Assembly: GCF_036880985.1 (NCBI RefSeq)
Contig: NZ_JBAJNO010000009.1
Span: 1,612,001-1,676,000, forward strand
Source: Limibacter armeniacum
GTDB taxonomy: Bacteria > Bacteroidota > Bacteroidia > Cytophagales > Flammeovirgaceae
Direction: 5' to 3'
Length of the DNA stretch: 64,000 nt
Positions 23,693 to 37,873 of this stretch are shown in pieces. How positions within the stretch are numbered: the first letter of the stretch is position 1; each line of letters starts with the position of its first letter. The notes beneath the pieces are model-generated. The model made no database searches, had not been told where the DNA came from, and worked only from the letters and a program-made list of their open reading frames with translations. A program made the translations under genes and the position numbers.

Positions 23693-23716
23693 TAGTTGAA
23701 AGACGTCTTTCAACTA
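23693..23716. repeat. 24-bp perfect palindrome
   Basis: Each arm is TAGTTGAAAGAC and its reverse complement, with no loop. In integron terms it is a GTTGAAAGAC core joined directly to its complementary GTCTTTCAAC core, as if a cassette had no content. It stands immediately before the platform remnant terminator. Confidence 0.7.
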
Positions 23717-23720
23717 GTTG

Positions 23721-23750
23721 AGCCAGCCCCTGATGGGTTTGGCTTTTTTT
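23721..23750 (+). terminator. Platform terminator, remnant copy
   Basis: AGCCAGCCCC-TGAT-GGGTTTGGCT with a run of seven T. Homologous terminators lie at 25817-25847 and 37846-37873. Confidence 0.8.
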
Positions 23751-23878
23751 GTGACCAATTGTGCCTACATGTCTGAACCTTGATCTTAAAGATCTAAAGG
23801 ATTGGGAGGATGAGGGAGGGTGTTGAGCAGAGGTAGGAAAGTACCATTTCGGAGATTAGGAAGTTGAAAGGGGGAGTG
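23751..23878 (+). repeat. Platform remnant: segment homologous to 25848-25974
   Basis: After the terminator the sequence follows 25848 onwards closely (GTGACCAATTGT, CTGAACCTTGATCTTAAA, GGATTGGGAGGATGAGGGAG) up to a degenerate copy of the coiled-coil gene tail at about 23823-23874. There it jumps straight to the last codons of the recombinase gene. The roughly 1.6 kb that separates these in the intact platform is missing. Confidence 0.8.
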
Positions 23879-23881
23879 AGA

Positions 23882-23914
23882 AATTTGAACAAAAGTAAGA
23901 ATCCGCTAGGTTAA
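23882..23914 (+). pseudogene. Last codons of a deleted integron-type recombinase
   Basis: Reads NLNKSKNPLG-stop, matching NLNKIKNPLD at the C-terminus of the intact recombinase (27614-27646). The rest of the gene is absent. The homology continues past the stop into the attI-like region. Confidence 0.8.
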
Positions 23915-23996
23915 AGAAGTTTTTGATATAGTGTGTATAATATAATTTTTCTTTTATCCTTGAAATAGACGGCTATGTGTCACTGTGCTCAATTCA
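23915..23996 (+). other. attI-like region of the deleted platform
   Basis: Aligns with 27647-27736: GTTTTTGA, then AGTGTGTATA, and finally CACTGTGC...CAATTG. In the intact copy CAATTG is followed by the first cassette core TTACGGC; here it is followed at 23997 by the HxlR/SDR/NTF2 cargo. The insertion point is therefore the same in both copies. Confidence 0.65.
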
Positions 23997-24026
23997 CAAT
24001 TGACCTCACGTTTAAAAATAAAACTA

Positions 24027-24392
24027 TTAACTTTCGGGCTTTAAACGCTTTAAAATGACCGATCGTAAACGGTCTTCATTTTTATCGCCCCACTCTCCTA
24101 GCGCAGAAATTACGGGAATCAATGTCTTGCCAAATTCCGTTAAACGGTATTCCACTTTGGGGGGTACTACCGGATAGATTTTTTTGGTAACTAATTCGTG
24201 TTCTTCGAGTTCTTTCAGTTGAATATTCAGTACACGTCTAGTCGCATCGGGTATTTTGCGTTGCAGTTCACTTGGCCGTAAAAATCCTTCATTGATAAAC
24301 CACAGCAAGCGGATTTTCCATTTGCCATACAACACTTCGCCAATCAAATCCAAACCGCAATTTAGGTTCGGTAAAGTTTTCCTTTCGTACAT
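24027..24392 (-). CDS. HxlR family winged-helix regulator
   Basis: 121 residues. The HxlR pattern is complete: NCGLDLIGEVLYGKWKIRLL, LQRKIPDATRRVLNIQLKEL and VTKKIYPVVPPKVEYRLTEF, then GKTLIPVISAL. Members sense electrophiles or quinones, often through an N-terminal Cys; Cys12 is in the right place. It is divergent from the SDR/NTF2 pair and probably represses it. Confidence 0.92.
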   Translation of the reverse strand: MYERKTLPNLNCGLDLIGEVLYGKWKIRLLWFINEGFLRPSELQRKIPDATRRVLNIQLKELEEHELVTKKIYPVVPPKVEYRLTEFGKTLIPVISALGEWGDKNEDRLRSVILKRLKPES

Positions 24393-24518
24393 AAGACAAA
24401 AATAAACCTATGTTCTAAAATGCGCAATAGGGGAATAGTTTATCCCTATATGAATCGTATTTCCGTACTTGTGAGAACAGTACATAAGACTGAAATTTGC
24501 CCTAAACATTTCAATCAT

Positions 24519-24567
24519 TGGAACAAGTATTTAATTACAACAATGGAACAAGTATTTAATTTCAACA
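24519..24567 (+). repeat. Tandem duplication of about 24 bp over the SDR start
   Basis: GGAACAAGTATTTAATTACAAC is repeated as GGAACAAGTATTTAATTTCAAC directly downstream, so the first eight codons of the SDR have a near copy just upstream of the start ATG. Confidence 0.75.
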
Positions 24568-25337
24568 ATGAATTATCGGGCAAAATTGCATTGGTAACTG
24601 GCGGAACAAAAGGAGCAGGAAAAGCCATTGCAGAACGACTTTCAAATGCAGGTGCAACGGTAATTATTACGGCAAGAAATGCACCTGAAACCACCAACAA
24701 AGTATTACATTTTATTTCAGCGGACTTAAGTACTTCAACCGGAACACAAAAAGTAGTTGAAGAAGTTTTAGTGAAATATGGCAGATTAGACATTTTGATA
24801 AACAACTTGGGCGGTTCTGAAACAAAAGGTGGAGGTTTTTCTGCTTTGACCGATGAAGATTGGGAATATTCAATTCAGACTAATTTGCTTGTGCCGGTTC
24901 GTTTAGATAGGGGCTTTTTGCCAAAAATGATTGAGCAAAAAAGAGGTGTGATTATTCACATTGCATCAATCCAAGGAAGGTTGCCACTGTATGATTCTAC
25001 TTTGCCTTACGCTGCTGCAAAAGCAGGGTTAATCAATTATAGCAAAGGTTTGTCCAATGAAGTTTCATCAAAAGGTGTAAGAGTATTGACGGTTTCACCT
25101 GGTTGGATTATGACTACTGCAGCAGACAGAATGATGGAACGAATTGCTGACAGTTCAAACATAACCAAAGAACAAGCTATACAAAGCGTAATGGACGCAT
25201 TGGGTGGAATACCTATAGGCAGACCTGCGCAACCTCAAGAAGTTGCTGAATTGGTAGGCTTCTTAGTTTCACCAAGAGCCAATTATTTGACAGGGACAGA
25301 ATTTGTAATCGATGGTGGAACGGTCCCAACTATTTAA
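24543..25337 (+). CDS. Short-chain dehydrogenase/reductase
   Basis: 264 residues from ATG 24543; an in-frame extension to 24420 overlaps the promoter region and is rejected. Motifs: LVTGGTKGAGKAIAERL (TGxxxGxG), INNLGGSE (NNxG), IHIASIQGRLPLYD (Ser), YAAAKAGLINY (YxxxK) and the C-terminal GRPAQPQEVAEL...TGTEFVIDGG typical of classical SDRs. It is co-transcribed with the NTF2-like gene (22-bp gap) and divergent from hxlR. The AT-rich codon use differs from the backbone genes and supports transfer. Confidence 0.9.
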   Translation: MEQVFNFNNELSGKIALVTGGTKGAGKAIAERLSNAGATVIITARNAPETTNKVLHFISADLSTSTGTQKVVEEVLVKYGRLDILINNLGGSETKGGGFSALTDEDWEYSIQTNLLVPVRLDRGFLPKMIEQKRGVIIHIASIQGRLPLYDSTLPYAAAKAGLINYSKGLSNEVSSKGVRVLTVSPGWIMTTAADRMMERIADSSNITKEQAIQSVMDALGGIPIGRPAQPQEVAELVGFLVSPRANYLTGTEFVIDGGTVPTI

Positions 25338-25359
25338 TAAAAATCAAAAAATATAAACC

Positions 25360-25674
25360 ATGAACTTACCAAAAGTAATCGCAGACTTAGTAAAAGCACA
25401 AGACGATTTTGACAGTACGGCTTATGCCAATTGTTTTACTGAAACAGCTGTGGTTTTTGACGAAAGGAAAACTTATACGGGGAAAGCAGAAATAAAAAAT
25501 TGGATAGCAAAAGCCAACAAAGAATATCAAGTGACAATGAAACCGCTTGAATATCTGGAAACAGAACAAAGACTAAAAGCCGAAATCACAGGTACTTTCC
25601 CAGGAAGTCCGCTTGTATTGACTTACCATTATGAATTTAAGGGTGAGCTAATTCAATCTTTGGAAATTGTATAG
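25360..25674 (+). CDS. NTF2-like (SnoaL-type) protein
   Basis: 104 residues. The cone-shaped NTF2 fold is suggested by the N-terminal helix VKAQDDFDSTAYANCFTETA followed by VVFDERKTYTGKAEIKNWI and two beta strands ending in LTYHYEFKGELIQSLEI. Such small proteins are often partners or isomerase-like enzymes beside SDRs. It is the last gene of the cargo block placed between two platform copies. Confidence 0.82.
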   Translation: MNLPKVIADLVKAQDDFDSTAYANCFTETAVVFDERKTYTGKAEIKNWIAKANKEYQVTMKPLEYLETEQRLKAEITGTFPGSPLVLTYHYEFKGELIQSLEIV

Positions 25675-25730
25675 AAGTCGTCTGTATGAAAATAGTTAAC
25701 AAGGACTATAATATATTATAGTCACATCGC

Positions 25731-25816
25731 TATAAGCTATTCGGAATAGTCCTGTGTTTTGAGGATATAAAGAAATATAGCTGTAAGGAAGTTATTTAAA
25801 GGAAAGAATAAAGTTT
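25731..25816 (+). repeat. Array-end segment, first copy
   Basis: CGCTATAAGCTATTCGGA...AGTCCTG and GTAAGGAAGTTATTTAAAGG are shared in order with 37752-37845, the sequence just after the last cassette of the large array (CGTTATAAGCCATTCGGA...). It therefore marks the end of a second, smaller array whose content is the HxlR/SDR/NTF2 block. The core reads GCTATAAGC instead of GTTATAAGC. Confidence 0.75.
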
Positions 25817-25847
25817 AGCCAGACCCTGATGGGTTTGGCTTTTTTTG
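25817..25847 (+). terminator. Platform terminator upstream of the intact recombinase
   Basis: AGCCAGACCC-TGAT-GGGTTTGGCT followed by seven T. It closes the upstream cargo and insulates the recombinase region. Confidence 0.85.
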
Positions 25848-25918
25848 TGACCAATTGTACCTAAATGTCTGAACCTTGATCTTAAATATTTAAAGGATTG
25901 GGAGGATGAGGGAGAGTG

Positions 25919-25994
25919 TTGAGCAGAAGCAGGAAAGTACCATTTCGGAGATTCGGGAGCTGAAGGAGATGATAGAAAGGATGAGGAGGTAGTG
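25919..25994 (+). repeat. 76-bp direct repeat, copy 2 (detached coiled-coil gene tail)
   Basis: One mismatch to 20914-20989. It contains only the last ~24 codons and stop of the coiled-coil gene and is not a gene itself. Confidence 0.85.
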
Positions 25995-26447: not shown

Positions 26448-26494
26448 GCTAACCGTTGATTATACGTATATTAAACGTTTAATCAACGGTTAGC
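26448..26494. promoter_or_regulatory. 15-bp perfect inverted repeat between zinc-ribbon gene and recombinase
   Basis: GCTAACCGTTGATTA (26448-26462) and its exact complement (26480-26494), with a 17-nt spacer. The outer ends are GCTAAC...GTTAGC, the same shape as the cassette cores (R'' and R'). It may be an operator for both divergent genes or a recombinase-binding site. Confidence 0.6.
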
Positions 26495-26521: not shown

Positions 26522-27646
26522 ATGAAAACACGCCAAATTACGCTCAAGCATCTGCTGATAGCGGGCAGAAAGTATATCGGGTTGCAGTTCTACCCGGACA
26601 AGGTGGTACAGGCACTTGTCAAGGAGCTGCCCAGTCCGAGGTGGAGCGAGCAGTACCGGATGGTATTTATTCCCAACACCAAGGAAAATGTGCAACTGAT
26701 ATTTCGGAGGTTTAAGGGAGTGGCTTGGGTGAATGGGCAGTATTTTTTCCGTACAGGAGGAGCCAAAAAGGGAAATCCGTTTCCTGATGTGGAGGCATAC
26801 CGGCATCGCAAGCTCAGCGAAGGATACCGTCCATGTCCTGAATCCTATCTGGAAAAACTTGAGTTGAAGCGGTATGCCATGAACACGGTCAGGACCTATG
26901 TAGGCTGTTTTGAGGCATTTATCAACCATTTTAAGGACAGGGAACTGCTAGAGATCAATGAACTGGAAATCAGGACTTATCTCCAGCAGCTGATTCGTGA
27001 AGGGAAATCCGACTCAACTGTCAATCAGGCACTCAATAGCATTAAGTTCTACTATGAAGTTGTGGAGGGTATGCCCAACCGATTTTACGAAGTCGAACGG
27101 CCACACAAGAAAGAGCGACTGCCGGAGGTATTAAGCCAAGAGCAGGTACTGTCCATGATCAGGAAAACAAGGAACCTGAAGCACCGCTACATCATTAGCC
27201 TGCTTTACTCGGCAGGATTAAGAAGGGGGGAGCTGCTGAACCTTGAACCACGTGATATAGAAAGTAATCGGATGCTGATCAGGGTAAGGGAAGGCAAGGG
27301 AGGAAAAGACCGTTACACCATTCTTTCGGAAAAGCTATTATTGGAACTGAGAGCCTATTATAAAGAACACAGACCCAAAAAGTACTTGTTTGAGGGTGAG
27401 CAGGGAGGACAGTACAGTACCACAAGTGTCGCCAGGATTGTCAGCCGAGCTGCCAAGTGGGCAGGAATCCGTAAAAGAGTGACGCCCCATATGCTTCGCC
27501 ACTCATTTGCCACACATCTATTGGAAAATGGGACAGACCTACGATACATTCAGTCGTTGCTGGGGCATAACTCAAGCCAGACAACAGAAATTTATACGCA
27601 TGTGGCAACAAAAAATTTGAACAAAATCAAGAATCCGCTAGATTAA
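26522..27646 (+). CDS. Integron-type tyrosine recombinase of non-canonical form
   Basis: 374 residues, proposed to integrate and excise the cassettes that follow. Catalytic residues: Arg234 (AGLRRGEL), a Lys in GKGGKDR, His323 and Arg326 (TPHMLRHSFA), His349 (LLGHNSS), Tyr358 (TEIYTHV). The C-terminus NKIKNPLD resembles the IntI ending (...RSPLD). Differences from IntI: residues 265-305 run straight from KDRYTILSEKLLLEL to YSTTSVARI without the IntI insertion, and the first ~100 residues form an extra N-terminal domain (QFYPDKVVQALVKELP...). It is in the same orientation as the cassettes. It could also be a XerC/D-like phage integrase next to an unrelated array, but position and repeats argue otherwise. 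Confidence 0.88.
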   Translation: MKTRQITLKHLLIAGRKYIGLQFYPDKVVQALVKELPSPRWSEQYRMVFIPNTKENVQLIFRRFKGVAWVNGQYFFRTGGAKKGNPFPDVEAYRHRKLSEGYRPCPESYLEKLELKRYAMNTVRTYVGCFEAFINHFKDRELLEINELEIRTYLQQLIREGKSDSTVNQALNSIKFYYEVVEGMPNRFYEVERPHKKERLPEVLSQEQVLSMIRKTRNLKHRYIISLLYSAGLRRGELLNLEPRDIESNRMLIRVREGKGGKDRYTILSEKLLLELRAYYKEHRPKKYLFEGEQGGQYSTTSVARIVSRAAKWAGIRKRVTPHMLRHSFATHLLENGTDLRYIQSLLGHNSSQTTEIYTHVATKNLNKIKNPLD

Positions 27647-27743
27647 AGGAGTTTTTGACACAGTGCGTATATCAACCATGGTGCTTTTACCCCCTGATTT
27701 TACGGAATATATACCACTGTGCATTATATACAATTGTTACGGC
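27647..27743 (+). other. attI-like site
   Basis: Lies between the recombinase stop and the first cassette. It contains the inverted pair CACAGTG (27659-27665) and CACTGTG (27715-27721) and ends in the core G^TTACGGC (27736-27743). The region is conserved in the deleted platform at 23915-23996 up to CAATTG, exactly where the two copies diverge into different cargo. Exact recombinase-binding sites are inferred. Confidence 0.65.
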
Positions 27744-27770
27744 TAATCAAGCAAAGAAGATTTTTTATAT

Positions 27771-29273
27771 ATGATTAAGGAAACAGATGCATATGTGATT
27801 GTAAATCATTTACAGTTTCATTTCGGGGATGTATTAGAGAGAACAAAGAAAATTAATATTTTTAATGCAGCAGATGTCTGTGGAGTTTGTTTGCATGTTG
27901 AGTATTATTATAGATATCAAGGAATTTATGAACTAAGTACTGGTCCTGCTCAATATCTAGGTTGGGAAACAATTGATACTGTTTTTAAGCTTATAAATGC
28001 AGATGATTATATATCACTCCTTAATCGTTCTAAAGCTATTAATGTACTTGATGAGAGTGATGAAGTGAGTAAAAAAGACAGTGAGATATTATTTGAGTGG
28101 AATTCAAAGCCTCTAGATACAATATTCAATAAATGTGTGGATTTTCTATCAAAAAATTCACAACCACATTTACTTGAAGAAACAATGTCTCTTTTACCTC
28201 CTTTACCTAATAAAGAAAGAGAAATCCTAGAAGCCGCTGGTATGGCTGATTATGAATGGATCAAACGATTATTAGATGCTGGAGCAAATCCTAACATTAC
28301 TGATGGAGATAATACCCCTCTAAGTATAGCTTGGTATATGTACAGTGCTTCATATGCACCTCCTGAAACATCTATGGCATGTGTAAAATTACTAATTGAA
28401 TCAGGATCAGATCCTCTTTTGGGAGATAATAAGAGAATGCTTAGGGAAAGTCTGTTCCCTTTTGAGGAAGATCTCTTTAAAATGCTACTAGAATATGGGT
28501 GGGATATAAATTATTACACGGATGAATCGCCTGTATTTATCCTAGTTAGACAAATACCATCGATAAATAAGTACTACGGTAGCAATTTTGAAGCAGATAA
28601 ACAAAAGTATATAGATCGTTTAGATTACTTTCTTCAGAAGAGTCCAAATCTCAATGACCCGACCCTAACAGATGATAGATTATTACCTTTATCGATTTCA
28701 GAATATAAAGAAGTATCTGAGAAATTATTAAATCATGGAGCAAAATTGCAAGTAGAAGCTCAAGATGGATTTTATTATTTAACTCCCTTGATGATGGCTG
28801 TTTCCAATGGGAAGTTAGATGATGTGAAATATTGGGTTGAGAAAGGAGTTGGAATAAACTGTAGACTTGGGAATCGCTGTTACTTTCCACTTAGAGATAA
28901 TAAAATGATTCCTGCAGGTTTTACGGCTTTAGATATAGCTAAAGTGGAAGATAAAACTGAAATAGTCAATTATTTAGAAAGTCATGGAGCAATTTCTGGT
29001 GAACAAATTTCATGGAAAATTAAGATTGTTAGATATAATGGTAATCTGATGAATGTAAAAGACATTGAGTCATTAGCTAAAGATTTTAGTTCTGAAATTC
29101 AACAGGTGGTAGGCGATGATTATAAACTAAATAATTTAGAGTGGAATATAAAATATATGTTAGAAGAGGATACGGCTATAAAAACAAATGTTTTAGAGAG
29201 TTCAGATAAAAGTCTAATTGAAGCATTAGGTGAAAAATTAAAACAGTTAGATTTTGATTTTGAAGTTTCATAG
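27771..29273 (+). CDS. Cassette 1: ankyrin-repeat protein
   Basis: 500 residues. The N-terminal 150 residues are of unknown fold. From about residue 155 ankyrin-type helices follow: EREILEAAGMADYEWIKRLL, DAGANPNITDGDNTPLSIAW, CVKLLIESGSDPLLGDNK, SEKLLNHGAKLQVEAQDG and LDIAKVEDKTEIVNYLESHG. Ankyrin repeats bind other proteins; no catalytic domain is seen. It begins 35 bp after the attI core and is the first cassette. AT-rich compared with the element backbone. Confidence 0.82.
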   Translation: MIKETDAYVIVNHLQFHFGDVLERTKKINIFNAADVCGVCLHVEYYYRYQGIYELSTGPAQYLGWETIDTVFKLINADDYISLLNRSKAINVLDESDEVSKKDSEILFEWNSKPLDTIFNKCVDFLSKNSQPHLLEETMSLLPPLPNKEREILEAAGMADYEWIKRLLDAGANPNITDGDNTPLSIAWYMYSASYAPPETSMACVKLLIESGSDPLLGDNKRMLRESLFPFEEDLFKMLLEYGWDINYYTDESPVFILVRQIPSINKYYGSNFEADKQKYIDRLDYFLQKSPNLNDPTLTDDRLLPLSISEYKEVSEKLLNHGAKLQVEAQDGFYYLTPLMMAVSNGKLDDVKYWVEKGVGINCRLGNRCYFPLRDNKMIPAGFTALDIAKVEDKTEIVNYLESHGAISGEQISWKIKIVRYNGNLMNVKDIESLAKDFSSEIQQVVGDDYKLNNLEWNIKYMLEEDTAIKTNVLESSDKSLIEALGEKLKQLDFDFEVS

Positions 29274-29296
29274 GTTTTTTATACCAAAATAAACTA

Positions 29297-29370
29297 GCCG
29301 TAACAAGGGGCATAGTTCACTGTCAGTTGCGACGCAACCTGCCAGCGATACCATGCCCGATTCGTTAGGC
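29297..29370 (+). repeat. attC-like site 1
   Basis: Starts GCCGTAAC (reverse complement of the cassette's own first core GTTACGGC) and ends GTTAGGC. Inner arms GGGGCAT / ATGCCC and a GTTGC-GAC-GCAAC hairpin fold it on itself. 74 bp. Confidence 0.85.
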
Positions 29371-29379
29371 ATAACTAAA

Positions 29380-30207
29380 ATGAAAGATTTTAAATTTTCT
29401 GGAAATTGGAGCTCGTACATTAATCTCCACCATTTTGACACTTATTATTCAAAAAAATATTCTGCAAGTGGAGTTGAACTGGAACAGAAACAAGGAAATG
29501 AAATAAAATTAGTATTTGCCGATGAATACCAAGATTTTGACCCTGACCCTAAAAAGGAACAAATTAATACCATCAATTTTCTTCTTGACGAAAAGAATCA
29601 ATTAAGTATCATTGAATCGATAATTGGCTATTTAAAAGAAGTAATTTATCCATATTATAAAGAAGAAATTTTTCTAGAAGAGGAATATCCTCAATTCTAC
29701 CCTGAAATTGTTACTATTGACGATTTTCAGAGGTATTTTAGACTTTATCAGATTTCGATTTACACACTGAACAGAGATAATCAAGCATATTACTGTCTTT
29801 ATTTTGACATTAAATTACTTGATAGTGAACATGGTTTATCCATTGAAGTTCACAAGGACAGAAGTGTGGATCATGGTGCTAGTGACGGAACAGACGGTTA
29901 TATAATTGCAGAAGAATTAAACCTGGAAAACAATGTTCGTGATCTTATGCATCAAATAATAGATAATGAAAAACCTGTTTTACATAAACCTGACCCAAAA
30001 TACGGTGTATTAAAGCCTTGGCAAATTGATTCGAATGATCGTTTTGCTTTCAATGCATACAGAACAAATGAAGACGACTTATTAGTTGAATACATTAATT
30101 CAGGTATTAGGGATATAGGTTATTTCAAACGTTTCTATGAACTAGCGAAGAAAGATGGTCGAGAAAAAATAATTTCCGCTTTGAAAGATTACGAAGAACT
30201 AAATTAA
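29380..30207 (+). CDS. Cassette 2: hypothetical protein
   Basis: 275 residues from ATG 29380 (MKDFKFSGNWSS), which lies just after the core TTAGGC; an upstream start at 29353 falls inside the attC site and is rejected. The middle has LYFDIKLLDSEHGLSIEVHK, resembling the 'D.EHGL.i' motif of small DUF6985-type proteins, which supports only a weak guess. No signal or membrane segment. Function unknown. Confidence 0.7.
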   Translation: MKDFKFSGNWSSYINLHHFDTYYSKKYSASGVELEQKQGNEIKLVFADEYQDFDPDPKKEQINTINFLLDEKNQLSIIESIIGYLKEVIYPYYKEEIFLEEEYPQFYPEIVTIDDFQRYFRLYQISIYTLNRDNQAYYCLYFDIKLLDSEHGLSIEVHKDRSVDHGASDGTDGYIIAEELNLENNVRDLMHQIIDNEKPVLHKPDPKYGVLKPWQIDSNDRFAFNAYRTNEDDLLVEYINSGIRDIGYFKRFYELAKKDGREKIISALKDYEELN

Positions 30208-30212
30208 AATAT

Positions 30213-30368
30213 GCCTAACCTCACCTATGACACCATGGCGTGTCAGTGGGTTACGATAGGTTTGTGGTTACTTGATATCCCGCGAATTCTCTGAATTCGC
30301 TACTTAGATAAACGAAACGAAATACGAACTTAAACACGCCACGGAGCATAGCTACGGCGTTGTAGTTC
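30213..30368 (+). repeat. attC-like site 2
   Basis: Starts GCCTAAC (complement of core GTTAGGC) and ends GTTGTAGTTC. Long arms CTATG...TGGCGTGT and ACACGCCA...CATAG pair with each other. 156 bp. Confidence 0.8.
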
Positions 30369-30377
30369 ATTAGAAAA

Positions 30378-30827
30378 ATGATAAGAAGACTTATAAATAC
30401 TCTGAAAACTCAGGCCATTAAGGATTCTTACTTCGGTGAGATGGGTTCGACCTATGACAAAATTGAAAGTTGCTATTATCTTGATAAGGATATTGTACTT
30501 GAATCGATACATACACCTGTAATCTTATACATTGTATCAAATGATCAGAGGTCAAATAATAACCAGCAGAGAGCTTTTGAAGAAATCAAAAAGGAATTTC
30601 CTAAAATCTGGATTAACATAAAATCGTTCCTTGCAAAGAGTGAACACATAATTACTGAAGAGCAACTTAGAAAAGAATATAGACTTGAATCTCTGACAAT
30701 CCCCATTGACATTGAGAGGGATAAAATGGAGTGGGAAATTGACTTATTAAACTTAAAGGACGGGTTTTCAAAAATAATAGTTGAAATGAAAGGTGATGAA
30801 CCTTTTCACTTTTCTGTAGAATCTTAA
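30378..30827 (+). CDS. Cassette 3: hypothetical protein
   Basis: 149 residues, soluble, starting 10 bp after the core. The sequence alternates helices and strands (YDKIESCYYLDKDIVLESI, PVILYIVSNDQRSNN, KMEWEIDLLNLKDGFSKIIV). No recognised family. The C-terminal strand order resembles small immunity- or DUF2004-like proteins, but I do not press this. Confidence 0.65.
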   Translation: MIRRLINTLKTQAIKDSYFGEMGSTYDKIESCYYLDKDIVLESIHTPVILYIVSNDQRSNNNQQRAFEEIKKEFPKIWINIKSFLAKSEHIITEEQLRKEYRLESLTIPIDIERDKMEWEIDLLNLKDGFSKIIVEMKGDEPFHFSVES

Positions 30828-30838
30828 AAAATAAAAAC

Positions 30839-30914
30839 GAACTACAACAATGGCTAAAATGCATACCCAACCAACCTAACCGTTGCACGACATCTTAGCC
30901 GGAACGTTGGTAGC
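30839..30914 (+). repeat. attC-like site 3
   Basis: Starts GAACTACAAC (exact 10-base complement of core GTTGTAGTTC) and ends GTTGGTAGC. Arms TGGCTAAAATGC and GACATCTTAGCC pair. Nearly the same sequence as site 5. Confidence 0.88.
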
Positions 30915-30923
30915 TATTAAAGA

Positions 30924-31271
30924 ATGAAAGAAAAAGTCAAAGAGTTTGTTTCATCGAGGTTAGGTGTTCCCAAAAAACAGATAACAATGGACTCCAAAAT
31001 TGAGTCTGATTTTGGAATGGCAGGACTTGACACCATCAGTTTCTACCATGAATTCTTTAAAGAATTTGAAATAGAGAATCCTCAAGATTTTGATTTAGAT
31101 AGATATGTTACTTCGGAAAACTTGGAAATTTGGTTAATAGTGAAATCTATTTTTTCAAAATCTGCTCGTGAAAAACTAAGAATTGAAGAGGTCTCTATTA
31201 ATCACTTGATTAACGTGGCTGAGACAAAATTTTGGACTGAAGAAAGAAAAACAGCTACCAACAAAACCTAA
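30924..31271 (+). CDS. Cassette 4: DUF1493-type protein
   Basis: 115 residues. DSKIESDFGMAGLDTISFYH is the diagnostic 'DLG..GDDA' region of DUF1493, a helical family distantly related to acyl carrier proteins; FKEFEIENPQDFDLDRYVTSE follows as expected. The usual GDD is GLD here, and no Ser for phosphopantetheine is evident. The last codons overlap the start of its attC site (GCTACCAAC), as happens in compact cassettes. DUF1493 function is not established. Confidence 0.75.
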   Translation: MKEKVKEFVSSRLGVPKKQITMDSKIESDFGMAGLDTISFYHEFFKEFEIENPQDFDLDRYVTSENLEIWLIVKSIFSKSAREKLRIEEVSINHLINVAETKFWTEERKTATNKT

Positions 31272-31311
31272 AACTGCATTAAAACGCATTTTACATTAAC
31301 CGTTGTAGCGC
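31254..31311 (+). repeat. attC-like site 4
   Basis: Starts GCTACCAAC (complement of core GTTGGTAGC), within the cassette-4 gene, and ends GTTGTAGCGC. Arms around ACTGCATTAAAA / ACGCATTTTAC are weak. 58 bp. Confidence 0.78.
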
Positions 31312-31319
31312 ATTGGAAA

Positions 31320-31598
31320 ATGAAAATCACCAAAGACACATATAACCTCTTCTGCAAACATGGTAGTGAATTGCTATGGGTAAGTGACCCAATAAGAGAA
31401 CCAAGACCAAAAGGGACTAGTGAAAAAACGGACGAGGAGTTTGTTGTCTTAGCAAATTTGGACAAATGCATGGAATTGTTTCATAACGATTTCTATAGTC
31501 AAAAAATGAAAATGGAATATGCAGATAGAATCGAGAGTCTAAAGGTCAAAGTGACTGATGAAGTATTCCAATTAATAGAAAATAAATACAAAAAATAA
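31320..31598 (+). CDS. Cassette 5: hypothetical protein
   Basis: 92 residues, starting 8 bp after the core. Helical, charged (LANLDKCMELFHNDFYSQKM). No signal peptide or known motif; unknown function. One gene, one cassette, framed by sites 4 and 5. Confidence 0.65.
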   Translation: MKITKDTYNLFCKHGSELLWVSDPIREPRPKGTSEKTDEEFVVLANLDKCMELFHNDFYSQKMKMEYADRIESLKVKVTDEVFQLIENKYKK

Positions 31599-31599
31599 C

Positions 31600-31663
31600 G
31601 CGCTACAACAAGAGCTAAAATGCATACCCAGCCGCACGACATTTTAGCCGGAACGTTGAGTGT
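31600..31663 (+). repeat. attC-like site 5
   Basis: Starts GCGCTACAAC (exact complement of core GTTGTAGCGC) and ends GTTGAGTGT. Arms GAGCTAAAATGC / GACATTTTAGCC. Internal sequence shared with site 3. Confidence 0.88.
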
Positions 31664-31683
31664 AATAGTTGAAATTTAAAAAC

Positions 31684-32439
31684 ATGGATGACTTTGAAAG
31701 CCAAAAACAGAAAATAGAGATTCGAGAGAAAAGATTAAAAAATAGCACGATATGGGTATCAACATTGATTCCTTTATTGACTGTTATTATATCAATTGTA
31801 ACAACAAATTTGACTATTCAAAATAAGATAGATATAGAGAAATTGAATTTCACTCAAGAAAGAATAAAAACTCTACTAAATGAAGACGATATTTCAGAGT
31901 CTAGAAAAAAGTTGAAATTTCTTATTGAAAGTGGATTGATTGGCGAAAAGAATAATGAGGGAAATTTGTTAAAAGCTTTGAACTCAAACTTAATTAATGA
32001 AAGTGAAAGTACTTTGCAATTTCTTTTAGGAGTAAAGAGTTTTGACAGAGCTTTTAATAGTAAAAATCTGGATACAGTGATGACGTTTTATACTTCATCA
32101 ATTAATTATTTTATGAAAGCTTTAGATTTGAACCCCAATAATTATGAAGCAAGATCATATTTAGGGGCATCCTACAATAATTTAGGGATGGAACTTGGCT
32201 TATATACCCTATATGAAAAAGCATTAATAGAGTATGACCGGGCACTCAAATTAGATTCAACCATAATGTATGTTCATGTTGATAAGGCCAAAACTTTTGA
32301 GAATTTGGAGAAGTATAATGAACTATGTAATGAATTAGGTATGGTTGGTTCTCTGATTGGATTGGATTCATTTAGAATAAATGAGGTTAGTAGAATGAGA
32401 CTCCTATACTGCAATCAAGATACTACTCACAACAAATAA
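31684..32439 (+). CDS. Cassette 6: membrane-anchored TPR protein
   Basis: 251 residues from ATG 31684 (a TTG at 31669 is possible). One membrane segment (TIWVSTLIPLLTVIISIVTT) lies near the N-terminus, followed by a basic-acidic linker. TPR-like helices come next: FYTSSINYFMKALDLNPNNY, EARSYLGASYNNLGMELGLY, EKALIEYDRALKLDSTIMYV, HVDKAKTFENLEKYNELCNE. It probably binds a protein partner at the membrane. Function unknown. Confidence 0.72.
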   Translation: MDDFESQKQKIEIREKRLKNSTIWVSTLIPLLTVIISIVTTNLTIQNKIDIEKLNFTQERIKTLLNEDDISESRKKLKFLIESGLIGEKNNEGNLLKALNSNLINESESTLQFLLGVKSFDRAFNSKNLDTVMTFYTSSINYFMKALDLNPNNYEARSYLGASYNNLGMELGLYTLYEKALIEYDRALKLDSTIMYVHVDKAKTFENLEKYNELCNELGMVGSLIGLDSFRINEVSRMRLLYCNQDTTHNK

Positions 32440-32546
32440 TAAGCTCAATGAACAGGCTTAGTCATAATCAAATTTCAGTATGAAAGAGTAACTTTAGAAT
32501 TAATTTGAAAGGGTATGCTCACTGAGCTTATCTGGACGTTGGCACC
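32425..32546 (+). repeat. attC-like site 6
   Basis: Starts ACTCACAAC, only partly complementary to the core GTTGAGTGT, and ends GTTGGCACC. Arms AATAAGCTCA / TGAGCTTAT pair well. 122 bp. Confidence 0.7.
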
Positions 32547-32561
32547 AATTAAAATAAAACT

Positions 32562-33183
32562 ATGGCAAACCAAGACAACATTGACAATCCTGAAGAAGAA
32601 TTCGATAAGGATTTAAGCTTCGAATTGCCGAATGCAATTAAAAGGACTATCAGTATTCCCACAATTATTCTGATAGCTTTAATACTTGGAATTTATGCGT
32701 ATAATAATTGTTTGCAACCCCGGTCATATAGACCCTGAAAAATTTGGGCTGCCGACAACTCTCATTGCTCTGATAGTAATCTTGATAGTAATCAATTTAC
32801 CTTGGGACAAAATGGGATTTAGGGTTAAGAAAATAGGAATGATTGAACTCGAAAATGTAGTCAAAACTCAGGCTCGTGGGAACTCAAAAGAACTTGCTGA
32901 CTTACAGCGACAAATTGACGAACTAAAAGCAAAACTTCCAGAAAAAACTGAAGATAATGATAGTAGTTTGGACGATTTAGTGACGAAGTTTTTAAACCAA
33001 TACAGTCAATGGGCTTTCTCAGCTTTAAGAATTAAAAAATGGGGAGCATTACAAAGTGGCTTTGAAGGTTTAAAAAATTATGAGACTCAAGAAATAAGGG
33101 AAAGCCTTAGAAGATTACTATCAAAGAATATTGTCGTGACCAGAATTAGTAAAAAAGGAAACACGATTTACAAAATAAAATAA
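32562..33183 (+). pseudogene. Cassette 7: membrane protein gene with a one-base frameshift
   Basis: An ATG at 32562, 16 bp after the core, opens MANQDNIDNPEEEFDKDLSF... and runs to a stop at 32736-32738. The downstream part continues in the next frame: (C)NPGHIDPEKFGLPTTLIALI, a second membrane segment, and a coiled coil (LADLQRQIDELKAKLPEK) to 33183. The whole span is 3n+1 long, so one extra base near 32695-32720 would join both parts into one two-membrane-segment protein with a cytoplasmic winged-helix-like tail (RESLRRLLSKNIVVTRI). Either a decayed cassette, a sequencing slip or a frameshifted product. Confidence 0.65.
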
Positions 33184-33185
33184 CT

Positions 33186-33319
33186 GGTGCCAACACGGCA
33201 TATAGCTTATGGTGGATGAACGGCTGCCAGCAAGGTTTTCGCTCCGTAGCCAGCTTTGGTTTCGGTGGACAGGAAAGTCCTTCGAAACCGCCACAAGCCA
33301 TATGCAAACCGTTAGCATC
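33186..33319 (+). repeat. attC-like site 7
   Basis: Starts GGTGCCAAC (complement of core GTTGGCACC) and ends GTTAGCATC. Arms GGCATATAGCTT / AAGCCATATGC. Contains GGACAGGAAAGTCC, a motif recurring in site 10 and after site 12. Confidence 0.85.
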
Positions 33320-33333
33320 AATAGATCAGAATA

Positions 33334-34392
33334 ATGGATTTTTCATTTGGTGAAATATATAAGCATCGCTACTTTCCAAAGCAAATTCTAACTGGAATAG
33401 AGTTCTACTACACTTTGCTGGATTACTGTGATCCTTTCAAGATAAATGAAGAACAATGTCCTATTTCCAGAAATGATATCCAATCTTCAATACTAAATCT
33501 AAAAAGAATTCCTGAAGACCACCAAGTTCATAATTTAAGTCATAGTCACCCGTTTCTATCCGAACCCCTTGAGTCAATCGAATTCTACCAGAAAAAAATG
33601 GAGGAAAAAGCAGATTTGGGGATGTTGGATATGATGATTTTAACATGGTTAATTAACCTTGTTCATACTTCATCACACATTGTTTACGAAAAATTCCGAC
33701 TGGATTACGAGAGAATAACTGACGAATTGAGTCCTGTTGAGACCCTGAAAAAACTATACGAATATAAGGCAGCATGTCAAAAGAACAAGCAGAACTATAC
33801 GAAAAAAGTTATCGAGGACTGTCTCAACCTAATTTCAATTGAGATTGAAAAAAACAAGTCCTTGACAGAGGTGGATAACTCCAACATCAGTGCAGAGATC
33901 AATAATATAGTTCAATCCTACCTGAATAAATTAAATGAACTACTTGATAAAAATGACCTGTTAGACTCTCTTAAAAATGAGAGATATGAAGAGTTTATAT
34001 TTAAGATTAAACGAGTTCTCTATATACCAAGTTATTATGATATCAGTTCAACTGATAAAGAGAAAGTATTCCATGTGTATCTCTTAGGGGTCCTTCAAGG
34101 GCGCTTAGAAGAGTACCTTGTGAAATCAAACAAAGAGTCAGGAACCGGTCGCTATGATATTTGCCTAAATCCAATGGACAAGCGAAATCCCGGTGTAATA
34201 TTCGAAATAAAGAAGGTGCCTGAAAACTCAAATACCATGTTAATCGAAAAAGAGTTAGATGCCGCAATGTCGCAAATAGACGAACGTGAATATGTGTTTG
34301 AGCTTAAAGAAGATGGCATACATCAGATTCTTTTCATATCATTAGTCTTTAATGGAATAGAGCCTGTTGTTAAATGGCAAATATCGAAATGA
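33334..34392 (+). CDS. Cassette 8: PD-(D/E)XK nuclease-like protein (DUF1703 type)
   Basis: 352 residues. The C-terminal domain carries GTGRYDICLNPMDKRNPGVI then FEIKKVPE, i.e. the D-(x)n-ExK active site of the PDDEXK_9 nuclease-like domain. LGVLQGRLEEYLVKSNKESG precedes it as in AAA-ATPase/DUF1703 proteins. The usual N-terminal AAA ATPase is missing; the first 220 residues are helical and unlike it. A stand-alone nuclease-like domain would fit a defence or addiction role, but that is inference. Confidence 0.72.
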   Translation: MDFSFGEIYKHRYFPKQILTGIEFYYTLLDYCDPFKINEEQCPISRNDIQSSILNLKRIPEDHQVHNLSHSHPFLSEPLESIEFYQKKMEEKADLGMLDMMILTWLINLVHTSSHIVYEKFRLDYERITDELSPVETLKKLYEYKAACQKNKQNYTKKVIEDCLNLISIEIEKNKSLTEVDNSNISAEINNIVQSYLNKLNELLDKNDLLDSLKNERYEEFIFKIKRVLYIPSYYDISSTDKEKVFHVYLLGVLQGRLEEYLVKSNKESGTGRYDICLNPMDKRNPGVIFEIKKVPENSNTMLIEKELDAAMSQIDEREYVFELKEDGIHQILFISLVFNGIEPVVKWQISK

Positions 34393-34508
34393 TGCTAACA
34401 TATACTATCATTCCATAAGCTTTCTGAGCTATTTGCAAAGACTGGTGCTATCCTTTTATAGAAATTTGAAAAGTCCAGCTTACGGATGATAGTTGGTCGT
34501 TATCTATA
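34391..34508 (+). repeat. attC-like site 8
   Basis: Starts GATGCTAAC (complement of core GTTAGCATC), overlapping the cassette-8 stop, and ends GTTATCTATA. Arms ACTATCATTCCATAAGCT / AGCTTACGGATGATAGT. Confidence 0.85.
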
Positions 34509-34515
34509 AGAAAAT

Positions 34516-35239
34516 ATGAAGATCTGTAAACTCTGCGATAAACAAAAACCTTTGATAAAAAAAATCCCATATCATATCTAATTTTATGTACAAGGATATG
34601 AAAGATGAAAAAGGAAGGTTAAATAAGCTAACTTTTGATGGTAGTGGTAAGATTAACCATGCTATTCTTCAATCAGGAGAATTTGAAGGTGGGATATTAT
34701 GTGAGGAGTGCGATAATAATATTTTAGGAGGTGAAGAAAGATACGTTGCAAAAATCTTATACGGGAAAAATTTTGAAAACCCTCCTATTCGTGAATCATA
34801 TAATTTTAATGGCTCAAGAGAATTATTAAAGTTCTCAAATTTTGATTATAAACGGTTCAAATTATTCATATTATGGAGGTCTAGTATTTCTTCAAGGCCA
34901 ATGTTTAACTACCTATCACTAGGTGAAACACTTGAAGATGAAATTAAGAAGGTGATTAATGATGGAGATGCTAGAGAAGATACGAAATTTCCAATAATAT
35001 TGTCAACTTGGAGATATTCATCAAAAGAGGAAAGAGGAATTGTCTCCTCACCAATCAGTATAGAGATTTCAGGAGGTATTTCATATTTGTATATAATTAA
35101 TGGTCTAGCATATTGGGTTTTTTCTTCGGAAGAAATTATTCCAAAAGAATTAAAGGAATTAAGGTTGAAATCAGATGGGACAGTAATATTATATGACTTA
35201 CCTGAAATACTTAAAAAATATATAGATAACAAGGCCTAA
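34516..35239 (+). pseudogene. Cassette 9: Cys-cluster protein gene with a one-base frameshift in an A8 run
   Basis: ATG 34516 opens MKICKLCDKQKPLIKK, then stops after 21 codons. Removing one A from the A8 run near 34558 gives ...IKKSHIISNFMYKDMKDEKG, which continues in frame to 35239. 'CxxC...SHIIxxFMYKD' is a known N-terminal pattern of small zinc-binding HNH-like or phage-exclusion-type proteins, and CEECDN at about residue 60 supplies a second Cys pair. The gene thus looks intact except for this homopolymer. Homopolymer slippage, a read error or phase variation are all possible. Confidence 0.7.
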
Positions 35240-35387
35240 AAAAGCATAGCGTTATTAGTGAAATTGGTGGGTTGTTGTGTGAAAGAAATCCCACTACAAA
35301 ATGAAAAAAAATTTAAAAGTCTTGTAGCTATTTAGTAGACGGAACATAAGTTCTTTTCAATGCTTTTTAGTCGAGTCGTTGTGGTGC
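35221..35387 (+). repeat. attC-like site 9
   Basis: Starts TATAGATAAC (exact complement of core GTTATCTATA), inside the gene end, and ends GTTGTGGTGC. Arms GGCCTAAAAAAGCATAG / CAATGCTTTTTAGTCGAG. 167 bp. Confidence 0.85.
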
Positions 35388-35404
35388 ATTAAAAAGAACA
35401 AGAA

Positions 35405-36214
35405 ATGAGTAATCTATCAGATATAGGTTTTGACATACAAAGTGAAGAAGACTTTTATTCTTTACTTGAGAGAGCATATGAAAAGTCGACTCCTTTAAAT
35501 ACGACAAAGGGTACTTACTTTCAATTTTCCGATAAATCTGGAGCTGAATTGTGGATTCAAATGAGTAAAAAGAATGAATTACTAGGAGCAAATCCGCATT
35601 TCAAAGGAAAAAGTAAGAGAAAGATTTCAATAACAGCCAGTATTGATAGATCTGAAAGTGTTTTAGATGGTGCATTTCATTCTTGGGCAGACCCGTTGGA
35701 TAATGAAAATCCTGAAAGTGGAGCCTACCCGTTTGTTTTTGATGTTCCAAATCACAAGAAATATGTAGGAATTGAAACACCTCAAATAATCGAGATTCAG
35801 CTTTCGGCATTTGCTCAGGAATTTGATTATTATGATTCTGAAGAAGCTTTCGCCAATGGACAGGAAGGCGAACCTAAATGGGCTTCACAATCATTTGTAC
35901 CAAGTGGATTATTTAATCCAGGAGAAAGAGATGACCCAAATCCACCAGAAGCTTTAGGACTATTTGCTGGTATAATCAAACAAACCGAAAAAAGAAAAAA
36001 TGAATTTACAGGTCAGGAGTTCTATTGGATGCTTGTTGACACCCTTGGTGGTGAAATTGATGTACTAGCAGACCTTCGATTTTTTGAAAATTCTACACCT
36101 AGAGTCGGTGGAGTTGTGCACGGTCAATTTTGGCTTTCGGGTAAATTGTTAAGTGAACCAAAAATTGGAGATAAACCAAAAGCAGGATTTTTGAAACGAC
36201 TGTTTGGAAACTAA
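35405..36214 (+). CDS. Cassette 10: hypothetical protein
   Basis: 269 residues, soluble and acidic. The first half is beta-rich (GAELWIQMSKKNELLGANPH, RKISITASIDRSESVLDGAF) and the second half contains GLFAGIIKQTEKRKNEFTGQ and WMLVDTLGGEIDVLADLRFF, which looks like an OB-like barrel. No signal peptide, no catalytic motif, family not recognised. The C-terminus is basic (KPKAGFLKRLFGN). Confidence 0.68.
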   Translation: MSNLSDIGFDIQSEEDFYSLLERAYEKSTPLNTTKGTYFQFSDKSGAELWIQMSKKNELLGANPHFKGKSKRKISITASIDRSESVLDGAFHSWADPLDNENPESGAYPFVFDVPNHKKYVGIETPQIIEIQLSAFAQEFDYYDSEEAFANGQEGEPKWASQSFVPSGLFNPGERDDPNPPEALGLFAGIIKQTEKRKNEFTGQEFYWMLVDTLGGEIDVLADLRFFENSTPRVGGVVHGQFWLSGKLLSEPKIGDKPKAGFLKRLFGN

Positions 36215-36220
36215 AATTAC

Positions 36221-36419
36221 GACACCACAACACGGTATATAGCAAATAGGGCGTTCATTGGGTTAGGAAAGTCCTATGGTTATTTGAAACACCGCCAAAT
36301 CGTTGATTTGGCTTTTAAGAATGAATAAATTAAAAACAAAATAAACGATTTGGCTCGAAGTAACTCGAAAGTTCAGTGCTTTCTACTGCCCTACTTGCCA
36401 TATACAAATCGTTATCCAC
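36221..36419 (+). repeat. attC-like site 10
   Basis: Starts GACACCACAAC (9 bases complementary to core GTTGTGGTG) and ends GTTATCCAC. Arms GGTATATAGCAAATAGG / CCTACTTGCCATATAC. 199 bp, the longest. Confidence 0.82.
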
Positions 36420-36428
36420 AATTATACA

Positions 36429-37076
36429 ATGAGACAGATAATACTTCTATTGGTTATTTTGACTATTAGTTGCAGCCAACAAACCGCGAAGGAAGACAAG
36501 GTGCAGAATGATTCTATTGCAAAACCAGATCTCGTGACTGAACCAATTCAGGTGGAACAAACTAAAAAGATACAAGCTGACTATAGCACTATAGTTAACA
36601 ACTTCCCCGAAATCAATTCTCTTGATATTGATTCAGAGCAACTACAGAAATCTAGATATACGAAGTACCACTCTGAACGTGGCCTGAATAATTACTATTT
36701 CGAACTTTCTGAGCTAACAACTGCTGACAAAAAAATCATCGACATTGAAGACAAGGAAAACTCAAGATTGTTTTATTTCGGAAGAACGGCAATTGGCGAC
36801 TCTAATATAGTGTTGATTTTGAAAAACGACACAACTAGTGAAGGAATCAAAGACACATACTATGCACAGGTGCTAAACTCAAGCAATGAGGTTGAGAAAA
36901 CATTTGAACTTGCCAAGATTGATGCGCCTGAAATCGAAGAATCAACAGAAACAACTTCCAAGCAAATTGATGGAAAGGTTCTACGGACAACAATTTACGA
37001 ACTATATGAAACTCCAGTTGACGAAGAACCTTTGAAGCGAACTGAAAGGCAGGACACCATATCATTGAAGAAATAA
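36429..37076 (+). CDS. Cassette 11: hypothetical lipoprotein
   Basis: 215 residues with a lipoprotein signal peptide: MRQIILLLVILTISCSQQ, lipobox LTIS-C at residue 15. The mature part is acidic and mostly beta (FEKNNYYFEL-like strands, RLFYFGRTAIGDSNIVLILK, TYYAQVLNSSNEVEKTF). It would be anchored in the inner or outer membrane, facing the periplasm. Function unknown; one gene between sites 10 and 11. Confidence 0.72.
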   Translation: MRQIILLLVILTISCSQQTAKEDKVQNDSIAKPDLVTEPIQVEQTKKIQADYSTIVNNFPEINSLDIDSEQLQKSRYTKYHSERGLNNYYFELSELTTADKKIIDIEDKENSRLFYFGRTAIGDSNIVLILKNDTTSEGIKDTYYAQVLNSSNEVEKTFELAKIDAPEIEESTETTSKQIDGKVLRTTIYELYETPVDEEPLKRTERQDTISLKK

Positions 37077-37078
37077 AA

Positions 37079-37251
37079 GTGGATAACAAATGCTATGAAT
37101 GAATGAGGTTTCATCGGTCAGGAAATTTTCGTGAGGATTGGAAAGTCGGGGACGCCCAGTCTACCACAATTTTTAATCAAGGCGTGGCTATTTGTGAGAC
37201 GAGAGGTTAGTGCTTTTTAATCCTCACTCATCATAGCTGATCGTTATAGGC
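37079..37251 (+). repeat. attC-like site 11
   Basis: Starts GTGGATAAC (complement of core GTTATCCAC) and ends GTTATAGGC. Arms GCTATGAATGAATGAGG / CCTCACTCATCATAGC. 173 bp. Confidence 0.88.
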
Positions 37252-37261
37252 AAGCAGAAGA

Positions 37262-37732
37262 ATGGAAAAGTTTTCAAATAATAGAGAGAATTATTGGAAT
37301 CAGATTAAAAAGGAGTTATCGGATGTAAATGATTCCGGAGATTTTCGATTTCAATATCTCGAAATTGGACAACTCTTGTCTCACGGGTTTTCGGTTACTC
37401 TAACTGAAAAGAATCCTCGAGAGCTGGTTCTGAAAACTTGGAATGCTGAATATGACAACCAAAGATTTGATAAAGGGATTTTTAATCTTGATAGGTTGGC
37501 AATAACTGACAGAAAAGTTGAATTGAATTCACAAGAGTCAAAAACGATTAATAAATTATTAGATTCTAAACTTGAACTGACCAATTGGGGAGGAATAGTT
37601 CTCGATGGATTATTCTGCCAGTTTGAAACTAATGACAGAAAATTGGATTGGAATACTAATGAAGAAATTAATGACGACTTGATTGAGTTAGTCGAATTAT
37701 TAAGAAATAAAGCAATCCATAACACTGTGTAA
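37262..37732 (+). CDS. Cassette 12: hypothetical protein
   Basis: 156 residues, soluble, starting 10 bp after the core GTTATAGGC. Mixed helices and strands (FRFQYLEIGQLLSHGFSVTL, LNLDRLAITDRKVELN-like region). No family recognised. Its end overlaps the last attC-like site. It is the last cassette before the array-end segment. Confidence 0.68.
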   Translation: MEKFSNNRENYWNQIKKELSDVNDSGDFRFQYLEIGQLLSHGFSVTLTEKNPRELVLKTWNAEYDNQRFDKGIFNLDRLAITDRKVELNSQESKTINKLLDSKLELTNWGGIVLDGLFCQFETNDRKLDWNTNEEINDDLIELVELLRNKAIHNTV

Positions 37733-37761
37733 AAATTCATTTTACACTAAACGTTATAAGC
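37715..37761 (+). repeat. attC-like site 12 (last)
   Basis: Starts ATCCATAAC (imperfect complement of GTTATAGGC) and ends GTTATAAGC. Compact hairpin AGTGTAAAA-type arms: TGTGTAAAA / TTTTACACT. 47 bp. Confidence 0.72.
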
Positions 37762-37845
37762 CATTCGGAAAGTCCTGCATTTTGGTGGAGAGGTGGCAAG
37801 CATGGAGGTAAGGAAGTTATTTAAAGGCAATAATAAAGCTTAGCT
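37762..37845 (+). repeat. Array-end segment, second copy
   Basis: CATTCGGAAAGTCCTG...GTAAGGAAGTTATTTAAAGG matches the segment at 25740-25816. It is found after the last cassette in both arrays and so is part of the platform, not of a cassette. Confidence 0.75.
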
Positions 37846-37873
37846 AAGCCAGACCTAATAGGTTTGGCTTTTT
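37846..37873 (+). terminator. Terminator closing the cassette array
   Basis: AAGCCAGACC-TAATA-GGTTTGGCTT followed by T. Third copy of the platform terminator. Confidence 0.85.

Follow-up and report, generated by a model that had tools for sequence, protein, structure and literature searches.

A family of patch-less IntI relatives associated with cassette arrays in Bacteroidia

INTRODUCTION

In integrons run by IntI, attC sites are recombined preferentially as bottom strands, and the I2 domain of the integrase and attC sites have been called a "chicken-egg paradox" (Escudero et al., PMC4792948). The integron surveys that we consulted identify the integrase via its IntI-specific domain (PMC2426708, PMC9668308), and for Bacteroidetes proper, IntegronFinder 2.0 lists a single complete integron (PMC9024848). 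In the open-access literature, we found no Bacteroidota integron with a non-IntI recombinase. Two related cases have been described. The first is the rAID arrays, whose assembly mechanism was left open by the authors (PMC12247911). In the second, an aph(3')-IVb gene with an attC-like 3′ UTR was captured in Riemerella anatipestifer independently of homology by a recombinase unknown to the authors (PMC13148043).

Here, we analyze a 64,000-nt stretch of DNA from Limibacter armeniacum (assembly GCF_036880985.1, contig NZ_JBAJNO010000009.1, positions 1,612,001 to 1,676,000; hereafter, the window), which contains a tyrosine recombinase gene, int, followed by an array of gene cassettes. Our analysis of the sequence argues, with a probability of roughly 0.87, that Int is the recombinase of a chromosomal integron run by a patch-less relative of IntI and that the array is built by cassette capture at G^TT.

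RESULTS

Int has the catalytic residues of tyrosine recombinases and lacks the IntI insertion

The recombinase gene and the part encoding its N-terminal domain are located as follows:

26522..27646, + strand: int, patch-less tyrosine recombinase of 374 amino acids (aa) with R234, K259/K262, H323, R326, H349, and Y358 and the C terminus NPLD
26522..26743, + strand: candidate HARP/XPB-DRD-like N-terminal domain of Int, residues 1-74, based on an AlphaFold model, structural neighbors, and a Pfam HARP match in a relative

The gene is a single unbroken frame whose translation ends in KIKNPLD, and all the catalytic residues listed above are invariant in an alignment of Int with five relatives. Pfam places a Phage_integrase domain at residues 203-363, preceded by a SAM-like core-binding domain that begins at residue ~107. 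The top NCBIfam model is NF040815, named "site-specific tyrosine recombinase/integron integrase" (233 bits, cutoff 220). The XerD model TIGR02225 and the XerC model TIGR02224 scored 204 bits (cutoff 329.6) and 198.5 bits (cutoff 335), respectively. The IntI model TIGR02249 scored 202 bits, below its cutoff of 265, and matched in two pieces, with the break at the missing insertion.

When Int was compared with the Vibrio cholerae integrase VchIntIA (2A3V), residues 111-278 paired with 11-179 and residues 300-373 with 244-317, and the gap at Int 278-300 corresponds to 64 residues in VchIntIA. Across 177 aligned recombinases, the length of the segment is 23 aa in Int, 23 to 28 aa in the Int family, 30 to 31 aa in XerD, and 65 aa in every canonical IntI. 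Int thus lacks the insertion known as I2, or the patch, that separates the Lys strand from the H-x-x-R box, and is not a canonical IntI.

Residues 1-74 modeled alone form a compact beta-beta-alpha-beta-beta-alpha-beta fold (AlphaFold, pLDDT 84.6). A Foldseek search of the PDB with this domain alone returned nothing significant (best E 0.41). In a second structural comparison, several XPB damage-recognition domains came first, with a Z of ~6 that is under the safe level of the tool, and the HARP domain of SMARCAL1 ranked lower. The Pfam HARP model matched the N terminus of one relative, which has several tandem copies of the motif, at 24.6 bits (cutoff 25, E = 1.8e-5). Because Foldseek gave no match and Z was only ~6, the likeness to HARP/DRD is a lead with one sequence match rather than proof. 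Members of the Int family often have one or more such HARP-like domains at the N terminus. Several tandem HARP-like motifs ahead of the core-binding domain were seen in some family members, proteins of 450 to 600 aa (loci L085, L024, L026, and L181). HARP and DRD domains are known to act on DNA that is branched or distorted, and the N-terminal domain of Int may help to recognize folded attC sites.

An earlier note on this DNA, made from the sequence alone, had credited the protein with a full catalytic set, an IntI-like C-terminal NPLD, and an additional domain ahead of the SAM-like domain and had described the IntI insertion as missing; the alignments, models, and predicted fold bear out this description.

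The Int family groups with IntI

The Int family forms one clade in two trees (support 97/87 and 93/86). It is excluded from the IntI clade (100/100), and Int is excluded from the separate XerC/D clade (99/93). The family and IntI are joined at 100/99, with archaeal XerA as the nearest outgroup. A long-branched row, L251, wrongly assigned to the family at first, grouped with Xer in this tree and was left out later. With sphingomonad and phage recombinases added, the branching order of the family and IntI received support of 50 to 57. These sequence comparisons support a placement of the Int family closest to IntI among the sampled recombinases; an exact sister relationship is likely. The sphingomonad recombinases are encoded on plasmids (L282 5001-5822 and L283 3950-4864), are ~38% identical, end in SPLDKL, and branch near IntI and the family; the flanks examined contained no cassette array.

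The earlier note had proposed a phylogeny as a check and had reasoned that the enzyme, if it works on the adjacent attC-like sites, would be independently evolved or early-branching. The trees place Int outside ordinary phage integrases, in a family clade (93 to 97% bootstrap) that lies with IntI and outside XerC/XerD. Early branching fits better than independent evolution, since the family resembles Xer in having no insertion and IntI in its C-terminal SPLD/NPLD.

Int could also be a degenerate IntI that lost its patch secondarily, which would make the system a standard integron whose enzyme has been reduced. Insertions are easily lost, and the SPLD C terminus is common to IntI. However, the short segment is uniform, at 23 to 28 aa, in more than 100 diverse family members, where no intermediate length was seen, and the IntI clade excludes the family. 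Since Xer outgroups also lack the insertion, its absence is more simply explained as the ancestral state, which it probably is. We therefore regard secondary loss as unlikely.

The cassettes of the array carry a circular-cassette footprint

Downstream of int, 12 co-directional cassettes occupy positions 27737-37753. The attachment site and the cassettes are as follows:

27561..27738, + strand: attI, which begins within int (its final ~85 nt) and runs another 89 nt up to the crossover G27736^TT
27737..29364, + strand: cassette 1, ankyrin-repeat protein; core GTTACGGCTA, own R'' TAGCCGTAAC; attC 29295-29370
29365..30359, + strand: cassette 2, DUF6985 protein; core GTTAGGCATA, R'' TGCCTAAC; attC 30210-30365
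30360..30906, + strand: cassette 3, 149-aa protein; core GTTGTAGTTC; attC 30839-30912
30907..31302, + strand: cassette 4, DUF1493-like protein; core GTTGGTAGCT; attC 31253-31308
31303..31655, + strand: cassette 5, 92-aa protein; core GTTGTAGCGC; attC 31600-31661
31656..32538, + strand: cassette 6, TPR protein; core GTTGAGTG, R'' imperfect; attC 32424-32544
32539..33311, + strand: cassette 7; core GTTGGCACCA; attC 33185-33317
33312..34499, + strand: cassette 8, PD-(D/E)XK nuclease PDDEXK_9; core GTTAGCATCA; attC 34390-34505
34500..35378, + strand: cassette 9; core GTTATCTATA; attC 35221-35384
35379..36411, + strand: cassette 10; core GTTGTGGTG; attC 36222-36417
36412..37243, + strand: cassette 11; core GTTATCCAC; attC 37078-37249
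37244..37753, + strand: cassette 12; core GTTATAGG, R'' CCATAAC; terminal attC 37715-37759

Protein matches were obtained for ankyrin, DUF6985, DUF1493, TPR, and PDDEXK_9; the rest are unknowns. The attC sites have R''/R' and L''/L' pairs and, in addition, a complement to their own cassette: the core GTTNNN of each cassette (GTTNNNNNN) is the reverse complement of R'' in its own attC and not in that of its neighbor. This complementarity extends over 8 to 12 nt in 12 of 12 cassettes, two of them imperfect, against a mean of 6.4 for other pairs (p = 3.8e-9). Such a match within a linear array is expected of cassettes that derive from circles opened at G^TT. Opening of a circle at G^TT is the integron reaction.

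Linked cassette chains in the array reach five at k = 9 and eight at k = 8, while in four other stretches of the window used as controls they do not exceed two and four, respectively, and those in shuffled sequences are likewise shorter. The attC-like sites that the earlier note had reported next to the gene are thus far above chance. An Rfam scan of the array matched no family.

The predicted folding of attC sites was compared between strands for 98 sites from the window and 18 other loci. The bottom strand is predicted to fold more stably in 78 sites and less stably in 19 (mean difference of −2.3 kcal/mol, p = 1e-9); the corresponding numbers are 56 and 40 for shuffled sites and 44 and 49 for random segments. 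In vivo, attC sites presumably fold as single strands.

Copies of attI define the crossover point

The attI stretch, which consists of the end of int and the adjoining 89 nt, recurs several times elsewhere in the genome. One further copy follows a second, frameshifted copy of int that is 98% identical over its first part; the remaining ones follow short int 3′ ends. The five further copies that we compared agree as far as ATATACAATT^GTT, with near identity in some and ~78% identity over this stretch in one. Past this point, each continues into a different cassette start, which fixes the crossover at position 27736. The locus thus combines a tyrosine recombinase gene beside an array with an attI that has a defined crossover. 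Unlike in canonical integrons, attI lies at the 3′ end of int, and int and the cassettes are therefore co-directional. In 35 aligned loci of relatives, the first core is located 25 to 142 nt past the int stop codon, and in close relatives it mostly follows a short palindrome.

Flanks of the main array are repeated in the genome, including at a remnant of a second integron located upstream of int:

37754..37873, + strand: flank at the end of the array, also present at 25765-25844 and beside other copies of the integron in the genome
23881..25764, + strand (noted over 23716-25994): second-integron remnant, with an int 3′ end and attI remnant at 23881-24003, then genes and a terminal attC

The genes of the remnant, named by eye, are of the HxlR type, SDR, and SnoaL type and are followed by a degenerate terminal attC; the remnant shares its flanks with the main array (repeats D1, D3, D6, and D9). 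In the promoter region of int, a 23-bp inverted repeat (26448-26494, 91%, GCTAACCGTTGATTA...TAATCAACGGTTAGC) is kept at the second int copy, and the ends of this repeat look like attC core sites.

The association of Int homologs with arrays recurs across Bacteroidia

Int was searched against genome samples at the levels of order, phylum, and class, with a membership cutoff of E <= 1e-60. The family is present in 130 of 295 genomes of the class Bacteroidia (44% of the sampled species). Canonical IntI was found above the cutoff of its own model in 1 of these 295 genomes and not at all in the genome of L. armeniacum; in the phylum sample, it occurs in 93 of 345 genomes, nearly all outside the class Bacteroidia. 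Some of the canonical IntI genes in Bacteroidota outside Bacteroidia (loci L215 and L234) have cassettes downstream, co-directional with intI.

Arrays directly downstream of Int homologs are found across Cytophagales and Flavobacteriia and, in small numbers, in other Bacteroidota classes. To quantify the association, which the earlier note had set as a test, we used the 75 distinct loci of the family for which 1.5 kb or more of downstream DNA was available. A test based on single verified cassettes was dropped, as shuffled sequences contained 9 to 17 of these per 64 kb; linked chains and near-attI cores were used instead. A verified cassette starts less than ~200 nt from the int stop codon in 44 of 75 loci (1.8 expected from shuffles), and long linked chains are present in 32 (0.8 expected). 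One or the other is found in 54 of 75 loci, compared to 2.6 expected, while none of 57 upstream flanks contains a long chain. Similar arrays thus do accompany the family elsewhere, among them those of Gillisia limnaea, Flagellimonas onchidii, and Cytophagales bacterium Alg240-R148. Of the 21 loci without an array by this strict test, some are of the rAID type, with a different core, some are truncated, and some are unexplained. Many draft contigs stop just past the recombinase gene (L066, L069, L077, L088, and others). Such contig ends fit assemblies that break at similar attC sites, and arrays are therefore probably undercounted.

Two rAID-like arrays with immunity genes, from plasmids of Bacteroides (ovatus) and Parabacteroides, were examined (L278 6728-14807 and L279 6725-14813). 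In agreement with the published description of rAID (PMC12247911), the gene for a recombinase of the same clade precedes short genes that share one orientation and have conserved motifs between them. These arrays also have the own-cassette footprint, with the core CCA^TTANNN (own mean of 7.8 versus 5.6, p = 1.7e-5; p = 0.004 for L279).

Truncated family members were also observed next to resistance genes. The truncated tpnF/"xerD" directly upstream of tet(X3) on plasmids of Acinetobacter and others (L276 5025-7200 and L277 5025-7046) belongs to the Int family; in the own-core test, the attC-like segment downstream of tet(X3) and the upstream core gave no match. Another truncated member lies directly ahead of blaVEB-3 on an IncC plasmid of Klebsiella (L280 6241-7862), with the typical core GTTAGCGGTAAT between them.

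The array could alternatively be recombined in trans by canonical IntI or XerCD, with the adjacent int being an unrelated resident recombinase. Clusters of attC sites without intI are common in bacteria (PMC9668308), and the genome has other Xer-type recombinases that could act in this way. Yet, canonical IntI is absent from the genome and nearly so from the class, tens of loci repeat the family-array association with the same placement and orientation, no array accompanies the XerD and XerC genes of this genome, and none of its other Xer-type recombinases shows such an association. Recombination in trans is therefore quite improbable. That Int is an ordinary phage or ICE integrase next to unrelated intergenic repeats, such as transposable repeats or terminators, can be dismissed with near certainty: the repeats do occur outside the array too, but the complementarity is specific to the own cassette, attI copies part exactly at G^TT, and in the tree, Int is separate from the remaining recombinases that the genome encodes.

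DISCUSSION

The anatomy of the locus, the footprint in its cassettes, and the association across genomes point to Int as the probable catalyst. In the mechanism that we propose, Int would bind the folded bottom strand of cassette attC sites and recombine it at G^TT, the partner being either attI, with its crossover (27736) 89 nt past the int stop codon, or another attC site. Repeated reactions of this kind would build and reshuffle the co-directional array at 27737-37753. The N-terminal HARP-like domains may carry out part of the structure recognition in place of the I2 patch.

On balance, we lean toward a broader reading, in which a patch-less integrase lineage sister to all IntI drives integrons, including rAID, in nearly half of Bacteroidia, captures cassettes via attC sites without I2, and may represent the state that preceded I2. 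Standard integron searches keyed to the patch would not recognize the Int family, widespread as it is in Bacteroidia. A living family that has attC arrays and lacks I2 would make the paradox of I2 and attC testable. The family also offers a mechanism for the assembly of rAID arrays and is a candidate for the enzyme that captures resistance genes without homology in Bacteroidota, as in the case described in PMC13148043.

Among known systems, XerA/XerD-type recombinases (NF040815 and TIGR02225) provide the best curated match of Int, NF040815, but XerC/D form another clade, do not end in SPLD, and have no long cassette chain where tested. The Riemerella anatipestifer case (PMC13148043), likened here by description only, is likewise a Bacteroidota cassette with an attC-like hairpin. 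The rAID recombinase is 50 to 52% identical and falls inside the Int-family clade. Its N terminus has no HARP-like signature by eye, and its arrays have the core CCA^TTANNN instead of the G^TTRNNN of Int arrays; they have short spacers, and their cassettes are mostly immunity genes. With canonical integrons (class 1 and V. cholerae IntIA, 2A3V), the locus shares the R''-L''-L'-R' layout of attC and the G^TT crossover, and likewise has a predicted bottom-strand bias, an attI beside the recombinase gene, and co-directional cassettes. Int itself has the catalytic domain and the C-terminal SPLD in common with canonical IntI, from which it differs in scoring below the TIGR02249 cutoff, in having no I2 patch, and in carrying one or more HARP-like domains at its N terminus.
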